64,000 nucleotides of DNA from NCBI RefSeq assembly GCF_013408825.1, contig NZ_JACCBZ010000003.1, positions 62,001 through 126,000 on the forward strand. Direction: 5' to 3'. The first letter of the stretch is position 1, and every line of letters starts with the position of its first letter. This document shows, one piece after another, positions 2,369-38,711 of this stretch. A program made the position numbers and the translations under genes. This DNA is from Mucilaginibacter tundrae (GTDB lineage: Bacteria > Bacteroidota > Bacteroidia > Sphingobacteriales > Sphingobacteriaceae). Below the pieces are notes generated by a model. The model ran no database searches, was not told the DNA's origin, and saw only the letters and a list, made by a program, of their open reading frames with translations.

Positions 2369-2821
2369 TTATTCAGCTCTTGACCAAGTAGTTGTCCTGC
2401 CGAAAAGTGAGATTCCTATATAGCCGCGTATGGCCAGTGTTTTACCTTTGTAAGTAATTGTACAAGAGTATGTTTTACCATTGTTCGGATCATAAATTGT
2501 TCCGTCGGTGTATTTATCATCGCCATCTTTCACAAAATCTGCCAAAACAGGCAAGCCTAATCTTGGTCGGCTGCGAAGTTTTTCATCCTGATTTAGTTCA
2601 TCAACTTTGGGTTTGCCATTTTTTAGCGGTTCCCGAAGCCATACCACTTTACCATAAAACTTGCCATTTGGTTGTTTGTAGATAAGTATTTTACCACTTT
2701 TTACATCGTTATACCAAAGACCTTCAATCTTGTCGGTTTGCGCTTTGGCTGAAAGACTAATTGATGTAATGGCTAATACTAAAACCATTAGGCGAATGAG
2801 ATACTTTTTGTGTACTGACAT
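2369..2821 (-). CDS. DUF2147 domain secreted protein
   Basis: A 150-residue protein with a signal peptide (positive N-terminus, hydrophobic stretch, cleavage after SAKAQ near residue 28). The mature part is a DUF2147 domain: IEGLWYNDVKSGKI at its start, FYGKVVWL, the charged LRSRPRLGLPVL, GTIYDPNNGKTYS, and the ending RGYIGISLFGRTTTW. DUF2147 is a small lipocalin-like domain found mainly in Bacteroidota and Proteobacteria with no settled function. The protein is predicted periplasmic or outer-membrane associated. It sits directly ahead of the beta-oxidation gene and below a degenerate copy of the operator-like motif, so a role in lipid uptake or handling is plausible but is inference. Confidence 0.88.
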   Translation of the reverse strand: MSVHKKYLIRLMVLVLAITSISLSAKAQTDKIEGLWYNDVKSGKILIYKQPNGKFYGKVVWLREPLKNGKPKVDELNQDEKLRSRPRLGLPVLADFVKDGDDKYTDGTIYDPNNGKTYSCTITYKGKTLAIRGYIGISLFGRTTTWSRAE

Positions 2822-3009
2822 GTTTGTAAAGATTAATATCGGTTAATAAATTCGGTTAACAGGATACACCCACAAGGTATGCAAAACACACGCAAAATGG
2901 AATATTCCTGATTAAAGGCGAATAAAAATCAGTCGATAGTTAATAAGTTTAGTATTGGTTTACTGTTAACAAATATCCTTTTACAAAGCCAAATACAAAG
3001 GGCTAAATG

Positions 3010-3035
3010 GCGGAAAGATTTGTCAAAATTACGGA
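3010..3035 (-). promoter_or_regulatory. degenerate third copy of the beta-oxidation operator-like motif
   Basis: Read on the + strand, GCGGAAAGATTTGTCAAAA plus the following bases match 20 of 26 positions of the 29-bp motif found identically at 7546-7574 and 8603-8631. It keeps the GCGGA, GTCAAAA and CGGA blocks. It lies about 190 bp upstream of the DUF2147/hydroxyacyl-CoA dehydrogenase pair, in the same orientation relative to that pair as the other copies are to their genes. Spacing to the gene is longer than at the other two sites. Binding is inferred. Confidence 0.5.
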
Positions 3036-3045
3036 TAGTGTGCCC

Positions 3046-3303: not shown

Positions 3304-3753
3304 TTAGTTTTTAGGTTTTGCCTGTTCCTCCATGTAATCATGGCCTTGGGGTGAATTCATGAAATGCTCCATTAATTCGGCAGGCAGGGCAGCCAATTTT
3401 CTTTTTTCAAGGTCGATCCAGGCACCTTCTACAATTATGGTGGCTGCTTTTACGCCGTCGCTACGAAATATCTCGTGGCGCATTGTCCATCTTGAACCAT
3501 CCACTCTTGATTTTATCAGTTCGCAGGATACTTTGATGCGCTCATTGATACCCACTTCACGAGTGTAAAACAGCTCTTCCCTGAATAAAACCGGGCCAAT
3601 GTTGTATTTTAATAATGCTTTAAGATCCAGTCCCAGACTTTCCATCATGGTTAACCTGGCCTGTGCACCAAAATCAGCATAGGCAGAATGGCGCATATGC
3701 TGGTTGGCATCAATCTGCGACCATAGAACCTGGCCCTCATAAAACACATTCAT
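3304..3753 (-). CDS. acyl-CoA thioesterase (4HBT hot-dog fold)
   Basis: A 149-residue single hot-dog-domain thioesterase, predicted to hydrolyse acyl-CoA to free acid and CoA. It opens with YEGQVLWSQIDANQHMRHSAY, where the D-x-N-x-H-x-x-H pattern is the 4HBT active-site segment with Asp in the catalytic position. A central helix (DFGAQARLTMMESLG) and beta strands with IKVSCELIKS and RWTMRHEIFR follow. It sits between etfA (8-bp gap) and the acyl-CoA-binding protein (3-bp gap). The substrate chain length cannot be read from the sequence. It probably prevents acyl-CoA overload during beta-oxidation. Confidence 0.88.
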   Translation of the reverse strand: MNVFYEGQVLWSQIDANQHMRHSAYADFGAQARLTMMESLGLDLKALLKYNIGPVLFREELFYTREVGINERIKVSCELIKSRVDGSRWTMRHEIFRSDGVKAATIIVEGAWIDLEKRKLAALPAELMEHFMNSPQGHDYMEEQAKPKN

Positions 3754-3761
3754 AACGTATT

Positions 3762-4736
3762 TTATTTATGTTGTTTGAATTTTTTAACAGCTTCGGTAAG
3801 CTTTGGTAGAATTTCCATCGCATCACCAACTACGCCATAATTTGCCGCTTTAAAAAACGGTGCTTCGGGATCTTTATTGATGACAACGATTACTTTAGAA
3901 CCGTTAACACCCGCCAAATGCTGGATAGCACCCGATATACCTACGGCGATATATAAATTAGGACGAATAGTACCCCCTGTTTGGCCTACGTGCTCATGGT
4001 GTGGTCTCCATCCGGCATCCGCTACGGGGCGAGAACATGCCGTTGCAGCGCCTAATTCTTTAGCCAGATCTTCAATCAATCCCCAGTTTTCAGGGCCTTT
4101 CATACCACGACCGCCGGATACTACCAACTCTGCGTCAGCAAGTGATACTTCCCCGGTTACTTTATCTACTGATTTTACTTTTATGCCGAAATCTTTATCG
4201 CCAAAAGTCACATCCAATCTCTCAATTGATGCTTTTCCGCTACCGGGCGCTAATGGGAACGAATTTGCCATTAAAGTAATTACCTTAACATCACTGGTGA
4301 TATTAACAAAAGCAAATGCTTTACCGGAGAATACTGCTTTTTTAAGCACAAAACCTTTATCCAGATCAGGGTAAGATAACGCACCTGATACCAAACCAGC
4401 TTTCAATTTTACAGCTACACGTGGGGCTACAGCTTTGCCATTGATATCGTGTAAAGCGATAATAATTTTGCTTCCCTCCTTTTGGGCCGCAGCTATCAAT
4501 GCTGAAGCATAGGCACGGGCATGTAATTCATTTAGTTTCTCATCAGCTACATGTAATACTTTTTGTACGCCATGTGTACCAAGGTTTTCAAGTTCACTGT
4601 CAGCAATTGTTCCTAAAACTAAAGCGGTAGCGGTTGTATTTGTTTTTTTAGCTATCTCCGCGGCGTATTGCACTGCTTCAAAACTTTTCTTTTTTATGTT
4701 TCCATCGGTGTGCTCCACCAATACTAATACAGACAT
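3762..4736 (-). CDS. etfA: electron transfer flavoprotein subunit alpha
   Basis: A 324-residue alpha subunit of electron-transfer flavoprotein, which takes electrons from acyl-CoA dehydrogenases and passes them to the ETF:quinone oxidoreductase. The N-terminal half is the ETF alpha/beta fold (SVLVLVEHTDGNIKKKSFE). The C-terminal FAD domain contains VSGGRGMKGPENW, the Arg/Pro segment CSRPVADAGWRPHHEHVGQTG, and IAVGISGAIQHLAGVNGS with VVINKDPEAPFF. The length is normal. It follows etfB by 15 bp and precedes the thioesterase by 8 bp. Assignment is secure. Confidence 0.97.
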   Translation of the reverse strand: MSVLVLVEHTDGNIKKKSFEAVQYAAEIAKKTNTTATALVLGTIADSELENLGTHGVQKVLHVADEKLNELHARAYASALIAAAQKEGSKIIIALHDINGKAVAPRVAVKLKAGLVSGALSYPDLDKGFVLKKAVFSGKAFAFVNITSDVKVITLMANSFPLAPGSGKASIERLDVTFGDKDFGIKVKSVDKVTGEVSLADAELVVSGGRGMKGPENWGLIEDLAKELGAATACSRPVADAGWRPHHEHVGQTGGTIRPNLYIAVGISGAIQHLAGVNGSKVIVVINKDPEAPFFKAANYGVVGDAMEILPKLTEAVKKFKQHK

Positions 4737-4751: not shown

Positions 4752-5495
4752 TTAAATAACTTTTGCTTCGGAATGCAGTAACTCAACCAGTTCGTCCATA
4801 TTATCCGGACTAACCATTTTAACACCTGCTTTTGCCGGAGGCATCTCGTAAGATAAAATAGTAGTTACAGCAGCACTTGCGGTTGGTGTAACCACATTTA
4901 ATGGTTTGGTGCGTGCTGCCATAATTCCGCGCATATTTGGTATACGGGCTTCGGCAACGCCTTTTTGGCAAGCGATTACTACAGGGAAATTAACCACATC
5001 TGTTTCTTCACCACCTTCAATTTCACGTTTTACTGTTGCAATAGTTCCTTCAACCTGAATGTTTGTTGCAAAACCGATATAATCGGCGTCCAATAATTCA
5101 GCAATCATTACACCTACTGACCCATTATTGTAATCAATAGATTCCTTACCGCATAAAACCAAGTCGTAGCCTACGGTTTTAGCATATTCAGCTATATAAT
5201 TAGCAGTTTGGTAGGGATCAATGCTATCAGCATCAATACGTAACGCCTGATCGCCACCTAAAGCTAATGCTTTGCGGATAACCGGTTCGGTGTCGGCTTT
5301 GCCAACGGTTATTAAATGCACATCGGTAGCTACTACACTTTCTTTTAATTCAAGCGCGCGAATTAAAGCGTACCATTCATCGTAAGGATTTATAATGTAA
5401 GTTGTACCCTGTGAATTTACAGCGGTATCGTTGTCTTTTAGCATAATTTTAGTGCTGGTATCCGGCACCTGGCTTATGCAAACTAGTATTTTCAT
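4752..5495 (-). CDS. etfB: electron transfer flavoprotein subunit beta
   Basis: A 247-residue ETF beta subunit, partner of EtfA, binding the structural AMP. I place the start at the ATG at 5493-5495 (MKILVCISQVPDTSTKI), the usual family start. The frame stays open 51 bp further upstream only because it runs into the palindromic repeat at 5512-5602, so the longer version is rejected. Visible family segments are NPYDEWYALIRALELKE, GGDQALRID, DLVLCGKESIDYNNGSVGVM and the signature around VIACQKGVAEARIPNMRGIM. It probably belongs to the acyl-CoA dehydrogenase transcript, read through the hairpin, or has its own promoter. Confidence 0.97.
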   Translation of the reverse strand: MKILVCISQVPDTSTKIMLKDNDTAVNSQGTTYIINPYDEWYALIRALELKESVVATDVHLITVGKADTEPVIRKALALGGDQALRIDADSIDPYQTANYIAEYAKTVGYDLVLCGKESIDYNNGSVGVMIAELLDADYIGFATNIQVEGTIATVKREIEGGEETDVVNFPVVIACQKGVAEARIPNMRGIMAARTKPLNVVTPTASAAVTTILSYEMPPAKAGVKMVSPDNMDELVELLHSEAKVI

Positions 5496-5511
5496 GTTAG
5501 ATGTATAATTA

Positions 5512-5602
5512 TTGTCATTTCGAACGGAGAGAGAAATCTTCTTCAATTCGCATAAGCGCTATGCATATCTTATAAGATTTCTCTCTCCGTTCGAAATGAC
5601 AA
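5512..5602. repeat. dispersed palindromic repeat, copy 1 (29-bp perfect arms)
   Basis: Arms 5512-5540 and 5574-5602 are perfect reverse complements over 29 bp, around a 33-bp loop that has a weaker inner dyad. The arm begins TTGTCATTTCGAACGGAGAG. A second, diverged copy lies at 38621-38711 and shares the TTGTCATTTCGA outer edge and the GAGAAATCTTC inner edge. As RNA it would form a very strong hairpin between the acyl-CoA dehydrogenase stop and the etfB start. No transposase is nearby. Confidence 0.9.
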
Positions 5603-5619
5603 ATTGGTTTATTATGGTA

Positions 5620-7416
5620 TTAAAAACAATATTTATTCTCTTCAATTAATTTAGCTGCAATGTTTCTGCGGGCCTGGGTTGTATTAAAATCTTCGGTTTT
5701 GGTGAAGCGTTTTAAACCCATCATCATCATACGGCGTTCATCGCCGTCGGCAAACGAATTTATGGCTTCTTTACCAGATTTAAATATCTTTTCGGCCGCA
5801 TCGTTAATATAAACACGCATAATATCCAATTGTTCTTTGCAGGCTTCTTCGCCACGCATGCCAACCAATTTTTCAACGCGTAATTGAGTCGACTCAGCTA
5901 CATACAATTCAATCAACATATCAGCTAAGTTCATTAAAACTTCCTGTTCCTTACCCAACTGCTGCATTAGTTTTTGTACTGCCGAACCTGCAACCATTAA
6001 AACCGCCTTTTTGAATAAAGCAATGTATTTTTTCTCTTTCGAGAACAGTGTTTCCTCTTCCGATCCACCAAAATCAGGGATGCTCATTAACTCACCGGCA
6101 ACTTTTTGTGCTGGCCCCATTAAATCAAGCTCGCCTTTCATGGCACGTTTAAGCATCATATCAACGGTTAACATACGGTTGATCTCGTTAGTGCCTTCAA
6201 ATATTCTATTGATACGTGAATCGCGGTACGATCTATCCATAGGCGCTTCTGCGCTGTAACCCATACCTCCATATATTTGTACGCCTTCATCAACTACGTA
6301 ATCTAATGTTTCGGATGCATTTACTTTGATTATCGCAGCCTCGATAGCATATTGCTCTGTACCTTTTAACTTAGCTTTGATTGGGTCCATACCGGTTTCA
6401 ATTAAATGTTCGGTAGCCTGCTCCATGTTTTCGCTGGCACGATACGCAGCAGATTCTGACGCATAAGTTTTTATAGCCTGTTCAGCTATTTTATATCGGA
6501 TTGCACCATATTTAGAAATCGGCCTGCCAAATTGTTCGCGCTCATTAGCATAATTTATAGCTGTGCTAATTACTTCCTTACTTGCGCCGATAGTACCACC
6601 ACCTAATTTAATACGGCCGAGATTCAATATGTTAACGGCTATTTTAAAACCGTTCTGACGTTCAGATAACAGGTTTTCAACCGGTACTTTACAATCGTTA
6701 AAAAACACCTGGCGGGTAGAGCTGCCTTTGATGCCCATTTTATGTTCTTCAGGGTTTAAAGTAATCCCTTCAAAAGTTTTTTCCACAATAAAAGCGCTTA
6801 GGTTTTCATCGTTATCGATTTTAGCGAAAACCGTGAATATATCAGCAAACCCCGCGTTGGTGATCCACATTTTTTGTCCGTTAAGGATATAATGTTTGCC
6901 ATCATCAGTAAGTTTTGCACGTGCCTTGCCTGAATTTGCATCGGATCCTGAACTTGGTTCGGTTAGGCAATAAGCGCCTTTCCACTCACCGCTGGCCAGT
7001 TTAGGGATGTATTTAGCCTTTTGTTCATCAGTGCCATAATATAATATAGGCAATGTACCGATGCCTGTGTGTGCCGAAAATGCTACTGAAAACGAATGTC
7101 CTGCGCCTAATTTTTCGGTTACCAGCATAGAGGTTTTAAAATCTTTACCAAAACCACCGTATTCTTCGGGTATGGATATACCTAATAAACCTAAAGCACC
7201 GGCTTCATCCATTAAATGTGGCATTAAGCCTTCTTCCTGTTCGTCAATACGCGCTAAATTCGGGGTTACGTGTTGTGCAAGAAAATTAGTGCATGTTTCA
7301 GCAATCATCAGTTGTTCTTCATTCCATTCCTCAGGAATAAAAACAGATTCTGCAGGGGTTTCCCTGATCAGGAACTCTCCACCTTTTATCGCCTTTACAG
7401 CTTCAGTATCATTCAT
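5620..7416 (-). CDS. acyl-CoA dehydrogenase, long form
   Basis: A 598-residue FAD enzyme that makes trans-2-enoyl-CoA, the first step of beta-oxidation, and reduces ETF. The core acyl-CoA dehydrogenase fold covers about residues 30-430: EYGGFGKDF, GAYCLTEPSSGSDA (FAD/substrate loop), WITNAGFADIF, HKMGIKGSSTRQVFF, REQFGRPISKYGAIR, and IYGGMGYSAEAPMDR followed by RIFEGTNEINR, whose Glu is the expected catalytic base. About 150 further residues form a C-terminal extension, as in VLCAD/ACAD9-like and Bacteroidota long forms. Its promoter region carries an exact copy of the 29-bp operator-like motif, about 130 bp upstream. Confidence 0.95.
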   Translation of the reverse strand: MNDTEAVKAIKGGEFLIRETPAESVFIPEEWNEEQLMIAETCTNFLAQHVTPNLARIDEQEEGLMPHLMDEAGALGLLGISIPEEYGGFGKDFKTSMLVTEKLGAGHSFSVAFSAHTGIGTLPILYYGTDEQKAKYIPKLASGEWKGAYCLTEPSSGSDANSGKARAKLTDDGKHYILNGQKMWITNAGFADIFTVFAKIDNDENLSAFIVEKTFEGITLNPEEHKMGIKGSSTRQVFFNDCKVPVENLLSERQNGFKIAVNILNLGRIKLGGGTIGASKEVISTAINYANEREQFGRPISKYGAIRYKIAEQAIKTYASESAAYRASENMEQATEHLIETGMDPIKAKLKGTEQYAIEAAIIKVNASETLDYVVDEGVQIYGGMGYSAEAPMDRSYRDSRINRIFEGTNEINRMLTVDMMLKRAMKGELDLMGPAQKVAGELMSIPDFGGSEEETLFSKEKKYIALFKKAVLMVAGSAVQKLMQQLGKEQEVLMNLADMLIELYVAESTQLRVEKLVGMRGEEACKEQLDIMRVYINDAAEKIFKSGKEAINSFADGDERRMMMMGLKRFTKTEDFNTTQARRNIAAKLIEENKYCF

Positions 7417-7545
7417 AAAAAGTTAATTTTAATGATGTAATCGTATGTTTATAATTAAACAGTAGTGTAATTGACCACCACTATAACTTGGGGTTTATAA
7501 TTAACGGTAAAATTATAAGGGTTGTTGTTTGATTAAAAGGTTTAC

Positions 7546-7574
7546 AATGCGGAGATATTCGTCAAAAAGTCGGA
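7546..7574 (-). promoter_or_regulatory. 29-bp operator-like motif upstream of acyl-CoA dehydrogenase
   Basis: The 29 bp here (AATGCGGAGATATTCGTC onward on the + strand) are identical to the reverse complement of 8603-8631. Each copy lies upstream of its gene in the same orientation relative to that gene: here 129 bp separate it from the acyl-CoA dehydrogenase ATG; the other is 101 bp from fadL. The AraC-type regulator gene lies between the two copies. Perfect conservation of a non-coding 29-mer within 1.1 kb is very unlikely by chance. That it is the regulator's binding site is inferred. Confidence 0.75.
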
Positions 7575-7580
7575 AAGAGA

Positions 7581-7639
7581 TGTAAGTCAAAAATCAAAAT
7601 TAAAAAGTCAAAAGTGCAAACGATTTATTTTGACTTACA
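7581..7639 (-). terminator. possible terminator hairpin at the end of the AraC gene
   Basis: TGTAAGTCAAAA at 7581-7592 is the reverse complement of TTTTGACTTACA at 7628-7639. The arm at 7628-7639 overlaps the AraC stop codon. The loop is A-rich, and an A/T run lies between the arms rather than a clean U-tract after them, so this is a weak call. Confidence 0.3.
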
Positions 7640-8522
7640 ACGCAGTGGCTACGCGATAATCTGATGGTGACTGACCGGTATGATTTTTAAAATACTTACC
7701 GAACGAAGACTGGTCAGGGAAATTGATACCTTCGGCTACTCGGGCTATGCTGATGTCATGGTTTCTCAATAATACTTTTGCCTCTAATATTACAGCGTCA
7801 TCTATCCACTCCCCGGCTGTACGGCCGGTAACCTCTTTTATAGTTTCAGTAAGATGTTTAGATGATACGAATAATGAATCGGCATAATATTGCACATTGC
7901 GGTGCTCTTTATAATGATGAAAAACCAATTCCTGGAATAAAACATTTAATTCCTGTTTTCGGGTTTGCTTACCTTTTACCATTACGTGGTGGCTGGTATA
8001 AATAGATTCCACCTCATATAATAATGATGTTAAAATACTTCTGGATATTTCCATCCGGTAAGGATGCTCTTCCCTATCCAGCTTTTTCTTCATCAACATA
8101 TAAATATCCAACAACATGTTAATTTCGTCATGCGTGGGATAAATTACAGGCAGCGAAGCACTTTTAAAATAACTGAACGATTCCAGAAAATGGCTATTAA
8201 CATTGTTCTCTGTCAGAAATGCTTTAGAGAACACAATAAAACGACATAAAAACTCCTCGCTGCTGTTATATATCCTTAAAATATGAAAGGGGGTTGCCAA
8301 TAACATAGCGTCGGCTTTGGCCTCATATATCTGCAGGTTTACTTCAACCTGCGCAGTGCCACGTGTACAAATCCCTATAATATAACCATCAGAACGATAG
8401 GGATATTCGCTTAAACTAAGCAGTTGTTTTTCATCCGTAATAAAAAAATCAGGCCCCACCAGTTTGTCGGCATACAGATCTGCAAATTTGGATAAACTTA
8501 GGTGCGCGATTTTTTTATTCAT
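7635..8522 (-). CDS. AraC-family transcriptional regulator, candidate regulator of the fatty-acid genes
   Basis: A 295-residue regulator starting at the ATG at 8520-8522; a TTG three codons further up is a less likely start. An N-terminal cupin-like sensing domain (about residues 1-170, e.g. RSDGYIIGICTRGTAQVEV, typical of the AraC jelly-roll arm) precedes a C-terminal double helix-turn-helix. The first helix pair includes NVQYYADSLFVSSKHLTETIK; the second is ISIARVAEGINFPDQSSFGKY followed by FKNHTGQSPSDYR, the AraC signature. It sits between the acyl-CoA dehydrogenase and fadL, both of which carry the same 29-bp upstream sequence, which makes it the obvious candidate regulator. The ligand, perhaps an acyl-CoA or fatty acid, is unknown. 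Confidence 0.9.
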   Translation of the reverse strand: MNKKIAHLSLSKFADLYADKLVGPDFFITDEKQLLSLSEYPYRSDGYIIGICTRGTAQVEVNLQIYEAKADAMLLATPFHILRIYNSSEEFLCRFIVFSKAFLTENNVNSHFLESFSYFKSASLPVIYPTHDEINMLLDIYMLMKKKLDREEHPYRMEISRSILTSLLYEVESIYTSHHVMVKGKQTRKQELNVLFQELVFHHYKEHRNVQYYADSLFVSSKHLTETIKEVTGRTAGEWIDDAVILEAKVLLRNHDISIARVAEGINFPDQSSFGKYFKNHTGQSPSDYRVATAL

Positions 8523-8602
8523 GTACTGCAATATATGACTTTATAGCTATTTTTGTTAAAACCTCTTACCTAAAACTTAAACAATGCTGACTAAAATCTT
8601 TA

Positions 8603-8631
8603 TCCGACTTTTTGACGAATATCTCCGCATT
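8603..8631 (+). promoter_or_regulatory. 29-bp operator-like motif upstream of fadL
   Basis: An exact reverse-complement copy of 7546-7574. On the + strand it starts TCCGACTTTTTGACGAAT. It lies 101 bp upstream of the fadL ATG and 80 bp upstream of the divergent AraC gene's start, so it could serve both fadL activation and autoregulation. It has no clean dyad; two GTC/GAC-type triplets separated by an A/T run suggest a direct-repeat site as AraC proteins prefer. Confidence 0.75.
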
Positions 8632-8732
8632 ATAGCCCTTTTTTTACTATTAAACCAAGCTAAATTTATTTTTTTAAACCATGCGGCCTTTGCACCTAGC
8701 AAACTGCGTTTTATAAACCAATTATATCAATT

Positions 8733-9959
8733 ATGAAGAAACTCTTACTATTAGTGTTCGCACTGATGCCTGTTATTTCGTTTGCACAGGGTTTCCAGGT
8801 AAATCTGGAAGGTGAAAAGCAAATAGGCATGGGCCATACAGGCACCGGCCTTGTCCAGGATGGAGCATCTGTATTTTTCAACCCGGGCGCGGTAGCCATG
8901 TTACCGCAAAATTATGTTCAGGGTGGTATAAGTCCCCTATTATTCAAATCAACCTTTAATCCACAAGGCACAAATGTAGAGGATCATACCGCAAATAAAA
9001 TTGCCACTCCATTTACTTTTTATGCTGCATGGGGGCCAAAGGATTCATTTTGGAAACTTGGATTAGGTGTTTATACCCCATTTGGTGGCTTAGCAGACTG
9101 GGGTGATAACTGGCAAGGAAAGTATGTACTGGAAAGCCTAAACCTTAAAGCTATTTATATACAACCAACTTTAAGTATAAAATTAGCCGACTTTTTAAGC
9201 GTAGGCGGTGGCTTTGTATATAACAGAGGTAGCGTTGATTTGACGCAAGCAATTCCGTTGACAAATTCTGCAGGACAGGATGGGCAAGCAGAACTTAAAG
9301 GAACTGGTAAAGGTTATGGCTGGAACGCCGGTATATATATTGTTACCGAAGCAGGTATTACCGTAGGTATAACCCATCGTTCAGAAGTAAATACTACTAT
9401 TAATAATGGTACCGCTTTATTCACAGTACCATCATCATTATCGGCACAATTCCCTCAGCCTAATACATTTTCATCAAGTATACCTTTGCCGGCTACTACT
9501 TCGATAGGTTTTGGCTTTTACCCTACAAAGCAATGGACTTTAGCGCTTGATGTAAACATGATCGGTTGGGATGTGTATAAGGTATTAGCCTTTAATTACG
9601 GTACAGTTGAACCTGCTGGCTTACAAAACACAGTAGAGCAACGAGACTACCAAGATGCATTTAGCTTTAGAGGCGGCGCACAATATAAAACCAACAAAAA
9701 TTTGGCTATACGTTTTGGCGGAGGCTACGCGACTACTGCAGTTGAAGATGGTTTTGTATCGCCGGAAGCACCTGATGCCAACCGTGCATTTGTAACTGGT
9801 GGATTGGGATATACATTTGCCAATCATTTAGATCTTGATGTTTCATTTGAATACGAGCATGTTATGTCTCGCGATCAAACCAACATACAAACTCAGTTAG
9901 CAGGCACTTTTGAAACTAATGTTTATATCCCTGGTATATCACTGGCTTACCACTGGTAA
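8733..9959 (+). CDS. fadL: FadL-family outer-membrane fatty-acid/hydrophobic transport protein
   Basis: A 408-residue OMPP1/FadL/TodX-family beta-barrel. The signal peptide (MKKLLLLVFALMPVISFAQ) is followed directly by the family N-terminus GFQVNLEGEKQIGMGHTGTGLV, then ASVFFNPGAVAML, equivalent to the hatch region. Repeated amphipathic strands follow (LSVGGGFVYNRGSVDL, WTLALDVNMIGWDVY, NLAIRFGGGYATT, LDLDVSFEYEHV) and it ends on an aromatic residue (YHW). It should import long-chain fatty acids or other hydrophobic compounds across the outer membrane. It is followed 15 bp later by an esterase lipoprotein and preceded by the 29-bp motif, consistent with one regulated uptake operon. Confidence 0.93.
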   Translation: MKKLLLLVFALMPVISFAQGFQVNLEGEKQIGMGHTGTGLVQDGASVFFNPGAVAMLPQNYVQGGISPLLFKSTFNPQGTNVEDHTANKIATPFTFYAAWGPKDSFWKLGLGVYTPFGGLADWGDNWQGKYVLESLNLKAIYIQPTLSIKLADFLSVGGGFVYNRGSVDLTQAIPLTNSAGQDGQAELKGTGKGYGWNAGIYIVTEAGITVGITHRSEVNTTINNGTALFTVPSSLSAQFPQPNTFSSSIPLPATTSIGFGFYPTKQWTLALDVNMIGWDVYKVLAFNYGTVEPAGLQNTVEQRDYQDAFSFRGGAQYKTNKNLAIRFGGGYATTAVEDGFVSPEAPDANRAFVTGGLGYTFANHLDLDVSFEYEHVMSRDQTNIQTQLAGTFETNVYIPGISLAYHW

Positions 9960-9974
9960 TTAAAAAATAACAGC

Positions 9975-11285
9975 ATGAAGAACTTTAAATTATATATACT
10001 ATCAGGCTTGCTATTTATAGCTGCCTGTAAACCCGAGATCCATACACCAACATTAAGCAAGGGTACTGCTAATTTTTCCCGCTTTATTGCTGTAGGAAAT
10101 TCACTAACCGCTGGTTATTCAAATGGCGGCTTATATCTTGATGGGCAGTTGAACTCATACCCTTCAATTATGGCCAAACAAATGGCGCAGGTAGGTGGCG
10201 GAGCTTTTAACCAGCCTTTATTTACAACAGCGCAAGCGAATGGGTCTGGCTATTTAACTTTAACCGGATTTGATAAAAGTGGCAATCCGATAACTGCGCC
10301 AGTTACAACCGACCTTGCCGTTAGGGGTGAATACAATGCACCAGGATTTGGAACCGTTGTTTTATACACTAAATACACTGGCGATATTGAAAATTATGGT
10401 GTACCTGGAATAAAACTGTATAACATCACTACTCCTCAGTACGGTAATTACAATGGGTATTTTGAGCGTTTATTACCCGGTGACGGATCAACGACAGTAT
10501 TAAATACTGATTACCTTGATTTTGTAACCGCTAAACCATTTACTTTTTTCACTGATTGGTTAGGCAATAACGATGCCTTAAGCTACGCGACCACAGGTGG
10601 TGCTGGCGATGTGCTTACTGATAAAACAACATTTGCACAGTTATATGAGTTATCGCTACAACAATTAACAGCAAGTGGAGCAAAAGGTGTAGTAGCTACT
10701 ATACCGGATGTTACATCTATACCATACTTTAATACAGTTACTGTTGCTGCAATTAATGCTGAAGTAGCTTCAACTGGCCTTAAACTGTATGTTAATGCCT
10801 TAGTATCCGGCACCACTTATGCGCCAAGGCTCGCTACAAACAATGACCTGATCGTGCTCACATTTCCTACAAGTATGATAGGAACCATGGTAACTACACC
10901 ATATGGCCCGTTGCCTTACGGTCTGACACCCGTTACCCCGGTCGATAATCAATATGTACTGGATGCGAATGAAGTCGCATTAACCCGAGATTATGTTCAA
11001 TCTTACAATGCTACGATCACGACGCAAGCTGCAGCAAAAGGATTGGCTGTATTTGATGCTTATACCTATTTAAATAATGTAAAACTGCATGGTTTAGAGA
11101 TTGATGGTATTTCTTTATCATCAGCGTACATTACCGGCGGTTTATTTTCATTGGATGGCGTTCACCTTACCCCTCGTGGGTATGCTATTATAGCTAACGA
11201 GTTTATAAAAGCTATTAATACAACATATAATGCAAATGTTCCGCTTGCGAATGTTGCAAGTTACCAGGGATTAAAATTCCCATAA
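9975..11285 (+). CDS. SGNH/GDSL-family lipoprotein hydrolase
   Basis: A 436-residue predicted outer-membrane lipoprotein: the signal peptide ends in a lipobox, LFIAAC, with Cys18 as the lipidated residue. The SGNH block I is FIAVGNSLTAGYSNGG with Ser43 as nucleophile. Block III may be DWLGNNDAL. Block V is LDGVHLTPRGY with Asp394 and His397 completing the triad. It probably hydrolyses acyl esters at the cell surface. Co-transcription with fadL (15-bp gap) suggests it releases fatty acids that FadL imports; this is inference from context. The natural substrate cannot be read. Confidence 0.88.
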   Translation: MKNFKLYILSGLLFIAACKPEIHTPTLSKGTANFSRFIAVGNSLTAGYSNGGLYLDGQLNSYPSIMAKQMAQVGGGAFNQPLFTTAQANGSGYLTLTGFDKSGNPITAPVTTDLAVRGEYNAPGFGTVVLYTKYTGDIENYGVPGIKLYNITTPQYGNYNGYFERLLPGDGSTTVLNTDYLDFVTAKPFTFFTDWLGNNDALSYATTGGAGDVLTDKTTFAQLYELSLQQLTASGAKGVVATIPDVTSIPYFNTVTVAAINAEVASTGLKLYVNALVSGTTYAPRLATNNDLIVLTFPTSMIGTMVTTPYGPLPYGLTPVTPVDNQYVLDANEVALTRDYVQSYNATITTQAAAKGLAVFDAYTYLNNVKLHGLEIDGISLSSAYITGGLFSLDGVHLTPRGYAIIANEFIKAINTTYNANVPLANVASYQGLKFP

Positions 11286-38620: not shown

Positions 38621-38711
38621 TTGTCATTTCGACCAGAGGGAGAAATCTTCTTCGTCATGCATTCACGTTCTGCATATTGCAGAAGATTTCTCCCTCTGGT
38701 CGAAATGACAA
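38621..38711. repeat. dispersed palindromic repeat, copy 2 (31-bp perfect arms)
   Basis: Arms 38621-38651 and 38681-38711 are perfect reverse complements over 31 bp with a 29-bp loop. The arm begins TTGTCATTTCGACCAGAG and ends GAGAAATCTTCT. The outer 12 bp and inner GAGAAATCTT agree with the copy at 5512-5602. The middle differs, but in both arms alike, so each copy has kept its pairing. Confidence 0.9.

Follow-up and report, generated by a model that had tools for sequence, protein, structure and literature searches.

FadR, a member of the GntR family, and the TetR-family regulators of the PsrA/FadP type control uptake and beta-oxidation genes together, and they are mostly repressors of degradation. 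Within the AraC family, ToxT and Rns are proteins with solved fatty-acid complexes, and at the E. coli pBAD promoter the araI half-sites have a 21-bp period, the proximal half overlapping the -35 element. E. coli AraC is described as shifting onto araI1/araI2, close to the polymerase (PMC6018408). In Bacteroidota, the control of fatty-acid uptake and oxidation seems to be little described: among the best matches in the open-access literature, judged by titles and abstract openings, we found no AraC-type fatty-acid regulator from this phylum.

Here we describe a locus of Mucilaginibacter tundrae in which a gene for an AraC-family protein lies between two inverted copies of a sequence element, one before a gene for an acyl-CoA dehydrogenase and one before fadL (Table 1). 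We refer to the whole stretch of DNA that was analysed, 64,000 nucleotides, as the window. We propose, with a probability of roughly four in five, that the element is the operator of the regulator encoded between the copies, and that it would serve class II activation of three lipid units, likely in response to a fatty-acid or acyl-CoA signal.

Table 1. Genes, predicted operators and putative promoter boxes of the locus, numbered from the first letter of the window.
Feature	Position	Strand	Remarks
DUF2147 protein	2369..2821	-	sequence relative of HP1028 (PDB 4inn)
Putative -7 box of DUF2147 promoter, GATATTTG	2970..2977	-	34 bp after 24-bp core
Third predicted operator, before DUF2147 gene	2997..3035	-	half-site 1 3035-3018, half-site 2 3014-2997; 42.9 bits, profile R1
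4HBT-type thioesterase	3304..3753	-	domain match
Electron transfer flavoprotein alpha (EtfA)	3762..4736	-	domain match
Electron transfer flavoprotein beta (EtfB)	4752..5495	-	ATG at 5495; mechanical ORF extends to 5546
Acyl-CoA dehydrogenase	5620..7416	-	NCBIfam FadE model NF058590, 807.5 against a cutoff of 600
Putative -7 box of acyl-CoA dehydrogenase promoter, TAATTTTA	7508..7515	-	35 bp after 24-bp core
Predicted operator before acyl-CoA dehydrogenase	7536..7574	-	half-site 1 7574-7557, half-site 2 7553-7536; 49.9 bits, profile R1
AraC-family regulator, 295 aa	7635..8522	-	HTH_18 + HTH_AraC; predicted binder of the three operators
Predicted operator before fadL	8603..8641	+	half-site 1 8603-8620, half-site 2 8624-8641; 55.2 bits, profile R1
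Putative -7 box of fadL promoter, TAAATTTA	8661..8668	+	34 bp after 24-bp core
FadL/TodX-family outer-membrane transporter (PF03349)	8733..9959	+	domain match
GDSL-type lipase/acylhydrolase	9975..11285	+	15 bp after fadL

Judging from their order and strand, the genes of the locus probably form operons. The best solved relative of the DUF2147 protein is HP1028 (E 2e-8), which is assigned to the lipocalin family according to a title cited in PMC5956850 and PMC9570263. Among the ortholog matches, the nearest named isolate is Mucilaginibacter sp. L196, whose AraC protein is 99% identical. Two near-palindromic hairpins, apparently of one family (TTGTCATTTCGAnC..GAGAAATCTTC and its complement), lie at 5512-5602, between the acyl-CoA dehydrogenase gene and etfB, and at 38621-38711; they are possibly dispersed intergenic repeats, and a plasmid search with the hairpin region 5505-5610 gave no match. 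Three further positions in the genome partially match the stretch 7581-7637 (GTAAGTCAAAA...TTTTGACTTAC), which lies just 3' of the AraC gene.

The inverted pair is real and beyond chance. The initial annotation had reported that AATGCGGAGATATTCGTCAAAAAGTCGGA at 7546-7574 has its exact reverse complement, over 29 bp, at 8603-8631, that both copies have the same orientation relative to their own downstream genes at 129 bp (acyl-CoA dehydrogenase, start 7416) and 101 bp (fadL, start 8733) from the start codons, and that an AraC-family gene lies between them; the sequence bears out all of this, and an independent listing agrees on the repeat itself. In a window of such composition, about 2e-8 exact inverted 29-mer pairs would be expected by chance. 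Two further inverted pairs in the window, 29 and 31 bp long, are close-set hairpins. Random positions in the genome had been named as a finding that would speak against a dedicated element, and this is not what we found: when the 4.83-Mb genome was searched with the 24-bp core at up to 3 mismatches, only the two promoter sites were recovered, and the reversed-pattern control of the same search gave no matches. In a model-free repeat search of the window, the ungapped likeness of the pair reached 55 nt at 87%. The same search matched the fadL copy, over 41 nt at 78%, to a third and diverged copy at 2997-3037.

We found that the element is larger than the exact repeat. The operator spans 39 bp and consists of two half-sites, TCCG-N3-TnTnG-N-C, placed 21 bp apart as a direct repeat in gene orientation, so that all three operators read TCCGACTTTTTGACNAATATC-TCCGCATTATAGCCCTTT or variants thereof. 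When a profile of half-site 1 (the first 18 columns) was slid along the 27, 45 and 28 distinct sequences of the three promoter classes, one class at a time, its top score fell at +21 bp every time, and the observed +21 score was reached by 1, 1 and 0 of 2000 joint column permutations, respectively. The consensus half-sites agree at 10, 9 and 12 of 18 positions in the three classes. Two half-sites repeated directly at a spacing of about 21 bp are characteristic of AraC-type class II operators; they are present here, with 21 as the best offset in all promoter classes.

The operators also hold a fixed position relative to a putative promoter. We looked for a -7-like box from 26 to 43 bp after the 24-bp core, and the best one (TAATTTTA, or GATATTTG for DUF2147) starts 34-35 bp after it in 27/27, 44/45 and 28/28 distinct sequences of the three classes. 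The flavobacterial -7 consensus is given as TAnnTTTG at -12 to -5 (PMC9723704). If the boxes found here correspond to it, the halves would be located at approximately -70 to -53 and -49 to -32, and half-site 2, placed by reference to the putative -7 box, would overlap about the -33 region. As predicted, this geometry is that of an AraC-type class II activator site and resembles araI1-I2.

The site before the DUF2147 gene was also found by scanning AraC loci at up to 6 mismatches, with the core copy of the window itself at 3012-3035. It is diverged yet equally conserved, and has the same orientation relative to its gene. To describe the sites jointly we used a sequence-only profile, R1, built from 44 of the 91 distinct 44-mer sites. 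A whole-genome search with R1 returned three strong sites, at 55.2, 49.9 and 42.9 bits. R1 was trained on these sites, which makes their own scores circular, and the genome search speaks to their uniqueness and is not an independent discovery; the support that is free of this training comes from the model-free repeat search, a search with a 15-mer pattern and the lag test. A fourth operator was not accepted, the next R1 match in the genome scoring only 13.1 bits, and the same search gave no further operator for the rest of beta-oxidation. By these sequence comparisons, the predicted regulon is one of three sites.

The conservation of the sites was assessed in 149 genomes of the genus, 63 of which encode an ortholog of the AraC protein at E <= 1e-60 and 69 of which contain the exact 15-mer TNGTCAAAAAGTCGG. 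All 63 AraC loci, that is, the window and L093-L154, were examined; because the genomes are kin, locus counts are not counts of independent events. Wherever the fadL start was found (56/56 loci), a site with at most 3 mismatches precedes it at 101-119 bp; fadL was unscorable in 7 loci, owing to a contig end or the lack of a fadL match in the fetched stretch. Before the first gene of the second operon, a site with at most 6 mismatches is present in 59 of the 61 scorable loci (L141 and L153 were unscorable), and the remaining two, L145 and L148, have degenerate sites with 8 mismatches at the usual distance. The DUF2147 site is present with at most 4 mismatches in 36/37 scorable loci, and with 7 in L139. 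Absence of the motif from close relatives had been put forward as a further finding that would count against the reading, and across the 63 AraC loci the sites are kept before the genes.

What lies behind the second-operon site is more variable than the site. The gene is an acyl-CoA dehydrogenase in 49 loci, etfB in 9 (11 with the two degenerate sites) and a thioesterase in 1, such that 12 of the 61 scorable loci have second operons that are not headed by the dehydrogenase; in the 11/61 that are headed by etfB, no acyl-CoA dehydrogenase match was found in the fetched stretch. This variation in the gene behind the site indicates that the site tracks the promoter and not one gene. In L095-L097 and L134, other ORFs intervene between araC and the promoter, and the site remains at the promoter. 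A few single loci depart from the common arrangement (positions in AraC orientation). L120 (G116) has two sites before the acyl-CoA dehydrogenase gene, at 6927-6950 and 7056-7079, with 4 and 0 mismatches. In L137 (G138), EtfA is fragmentary at 9037-9356, and in L132 (G125) the DUF2147 match is split at 10661-11109, which suggests that single members of the cluster decay while the operators persist.

If the element belongs to the regulator, the two should occur in the same genomes. The 15-mer is found in 61/63 genomes with the AraC ortholog and in 8/86 without it (Fisher p 3e-30, with kinship ignored), while its reversed-pattern control is found in 16/63 and 19/86, respectively. Since the reversed control occurs in 19 of the 86, the 8 AraC-less genomes that bear the motif are no more than chance would give. 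The two genomes that encode the ortholog and lack an exact 15-mer, G066 and G034, contain mismatched versions of the site.

Two of the eight AraC-less genomes carry the site before an acyl-CoA dehydrogenase gene. In G136, which has no AraC match, the contig starts 163 bases ahead of the site and the acyl-CoA dehydrogenase gene follows it, so the araC side falls outside the sequence. In G163, the AraC gene of locus L164 (G163:C129, 1893-3704) is represented by its C-terminal part alone and the operator before the acyl-CoA dehydrogenase gene is intact; two ORFs beside the remnant look like an IS-type transposase pair. For the other six (G008, G076, G102, G121, G126 and G159), none of the nine query proteins of the cluster matched at 1e-10 in the fetched stretches, and their 15-mers are taken as chance, given the reversed control of 19/86.

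We also examined genomes in which the target genes occur and the regulator does not. Seven of 20 AraC-less genomes of 99-100% completeness encode a FadL ortholog (E <= 1e-40), at 8 loci, and none of these loci has the operator, the best match anywhere in a locus having 8 mismatches. EtfB (E <= 1e-30) is encoded in 15 of the same 20 genomes at 49-53% identity, as against 71-96% among the AraC loci listed. In a family-wide draw of 399 genomes, the AraC ortholog was found in 2 genomes of one other genus, and both have the sites.

The initial annotation had interpreted the pair as a dedicated operator of beta-oxidation with its linked AraC regulator. Conservation, fixed promoter geometry and co-occurrence strongly favour the operator and its link to the regulator; the unit has to be revised from 29 bp to a 39-bp double half-site, and the number of copies from two to three. 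The label of beta-oxidation does not quite fit, in that the predicted regulon takes in outer-membrane uptake, a GDSL hydrolase, a lipocalin-like protein, acyl-CoA dehydrogenase, the electron transfer flavoprotein and a thioesterase, and genome-wide there are only three strong sites, with no other operon.

We conclude that the AraC-family protein is probably an activator dedicated to the hydrolysis and uptake of lipid and the oxidation of acyl-CoA, with its binding, activation as opposed to repression, and its ligand all predicted. An AraC dimer would most likely bind both half-sites and, once bound, would recruit RNA polymerase by class II activation. This would switch on fadL and the GDSL hydrolase gene as one unit, acyl-CoA dehydrogenase-etfBA-thioesterase as a second, and the DUF2147 lipocalin-like gene as a third. 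The signal is likely a fatty acid or acyl-CoA, a guess from the content of the regulon. The outcome would be that exogenous lipid is hydrolysed, imported, carried and oxidised on demand. The fadL operator, situated in the divergent fadL-araC gap, may in addition tune the expression of the regulator itself.

It is possible, but in our estimation unlikely, that operator and regulator are as proposed and that the AraC protein represses, or that it responds to a compound that is no fatty acid, such as an aromatic hydrocarbon brought in by a FadL of the TodX type or a different ester product of the GDSL enzyme. As to the direction of control, binding over -33 can obstruct polymerase as well, but AraC-family proteins on direct repeats that abut the core promoter are typically activators. 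As to the ligand, the regulator has the C-terminal double helix-turn-helix (HTH_18 68.7 bits, HTH_AraC 39.4 bits, both above cutoff), and the Pfam search reported no sensor domain. Seven strands are predicted in the N-terminal region, at residues 26-98 (model mean pLDDT 75.9). In a Foldseek search with the AlphaFold model, ToxT and Rns came first by E-value, but the alignments span whole chains with an rmsd near 20 A and a TM of about 0.3, and the match may partly reflect which full-length AraC-family structures are solved. Among the sensor domains listed, that of RhaR, which senses a sugar, gives the N-terminal domain its highest target TM (0.76, with AraC at 0.60); this counts in favour of another ligand, as does the fact that PF03349 spans FadL and TodX transporters. 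Against this, the FadE-type acyl-CoA dehydrogenase, the electron transfer flavoprotein, the thioesterase and the lipocalin-like DUF2147 protein together point to acyl-CoA metabolism. The structure model does not discriminate between ligands, and we do not take it as support.

Far less probable is a reading in which the elements serve as core promoters of an alternative sigma factor, with the AraC gene uninvolved. The conserved block does extend into the -33 region at a fixed distance from the -7 box, as such a promoter would, but the box itself resembles the ordinary TAnnTTTG type, and the direct repeat with its 21-bp period, which spans about -70 to -32, lies beyond the upstream reach of sigma contacts. 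Moreover, the presence of the sites follows that of the AraC gene, and three diverged AraC paralogs, in genomes that lack the ortholog, have adjacent versions of their own. The 21-bp repeat and the co-occurrence with AraC thus disfavour an alternative sigma promoter. Finally, we reject the idea that the pair bounds a mobile or invertible araC segment as its terminal inverted repeats, which the exact inverted repeats on either side of a single gene would fit: the sites lie at fixed distances from promoters and not at gene ends, a third copy exists with none elsewhere in the genome, and, with araC set to +, fadL reads away in 56/56 loci and the second operon reads along in 61/61, a constant orientation that means no inversion is seen in any scored locus.

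A further and independent test of the link between regulator and operator arose by the way. R1 gave matches at E <= 0.1 in 31 AraC-less genomes (G136 and G163 left out), and 11 were inspected. Three of the 11 are full-model matches, in G025 (26.0 bits), G068 (23.9 bits) and G113 (18.8 bits), and each is located in the gap directly 3' of an AraC paralog that is 30-32% identical to the regulator described here, with both halves kept at 21 bp apart. The gene after these sites is cupin-like (by a Pfam match of the G025 copy), and in G025 the gene that follows it looks like an outer-membrane efflux protein. The remaining 8 of the 11 are partial, 7 being inside ORFs of at least 110 aa and 1 at a contig end; one of those inside an ORF, in G065, has no AraC neighbour and at 20.6 bits outscores the G113 match.

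At most of the other paralog loci, no clear operator was recovered. R1 run on 35 paralog loci had 3 matches at E <= 1, the best at 13.6 bits. A weight-matrix scan of 30 paralog loci, which also took in the own locus and the ortholog L281, had 4 clear hits, L272 (34.2), L273 (32.0), L275 (28.4) and L297 (21.8), the first three of which had been preselected by the R1 genome search; the other 26 scored at most 12.3. The L297 hit is a weaker two-part site 3' of the paralog gene of G098. The pair in G208 (L295) is weak, and 21 is not its best lag in the stretch as cut. Near 1947-1985 of L283 (G072:C1:310108-314992), a strong 21-bp direct repeat, ACCGCCTTTTACACAT / ACCGCCTTTTGCACAT, is found just 3' of an AraC paralog gene that is 39% identical.

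In an unbiased lag test on 40 clusters of 76 AraC genes, lag 21 came first in both flanks, with a mean of 10.05 against 9.19 (sd 0.26) on the 3' side and 9.98 against 9.36 (sd 0.29) on the 5' side, an excess that is modest and concerns a lag that is a multiple of 3. Inside the AraC genes, 24 came first, and 21 was level with 33 and 12. From these sequence patterns, a part of this AraC branch seems to carry the operator design along with it. We would go further only tentatively, to an operator code common to a Bacteroidota AraC branch, in which a 21-bp-period repeat of (T/A)CCGnC-TnTTGAC, often just 3' of the regulator gene, reads into the next operon and has here been put to use in a fatty-acid sensor that parallels FadR. 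If true, such a shared code would make targets predictable for many unstudied AraC regulators.

Altogether, as read from its sequence, the locus adds a new local regulon to a known type of regulator, and this regulon appears real, conserved and mechanistically legible. It offers a small testable regulon, with one predicted regulator, three candidate operators, and defined half-sites and promoter boxes. The weaker and wider lead is that some related AraC proteins have operators of the same grammar by their own gene, which, if it holds, would make the targets of a large unannotated regulator family predictable. Among the closest known systems is E. coli AraC at araI1-araI2 of pBAD, which likewise has direct-repeat half-sites with a 21-bp period and a regulator gene beside a divergent target, and in which the proximal half overlaps the -35 element, as is predicted here. 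The half-site sequence is different here, however, the targets are lipid genes, and the regulator scores 65.7 bits, far below the curated cutoff of 208 of the E. coli AraC model (NF007860). ToxT and Rns share the AraC-family architecture and have the best Foldseek E-values, as a weak whole-chain match, but are virulence regulators. With FadR (GntR) and the PsrA/FadP-type proteins (TetR), the locus would share the joint control of uptake and beta-oxidation genes. Those systems, in contrast, use other protein families and other operators: the linked regulator has only AraC-type DNA-binding domains, with no GntR or TetR domain found in it, and its predicted operators are direct repeats.
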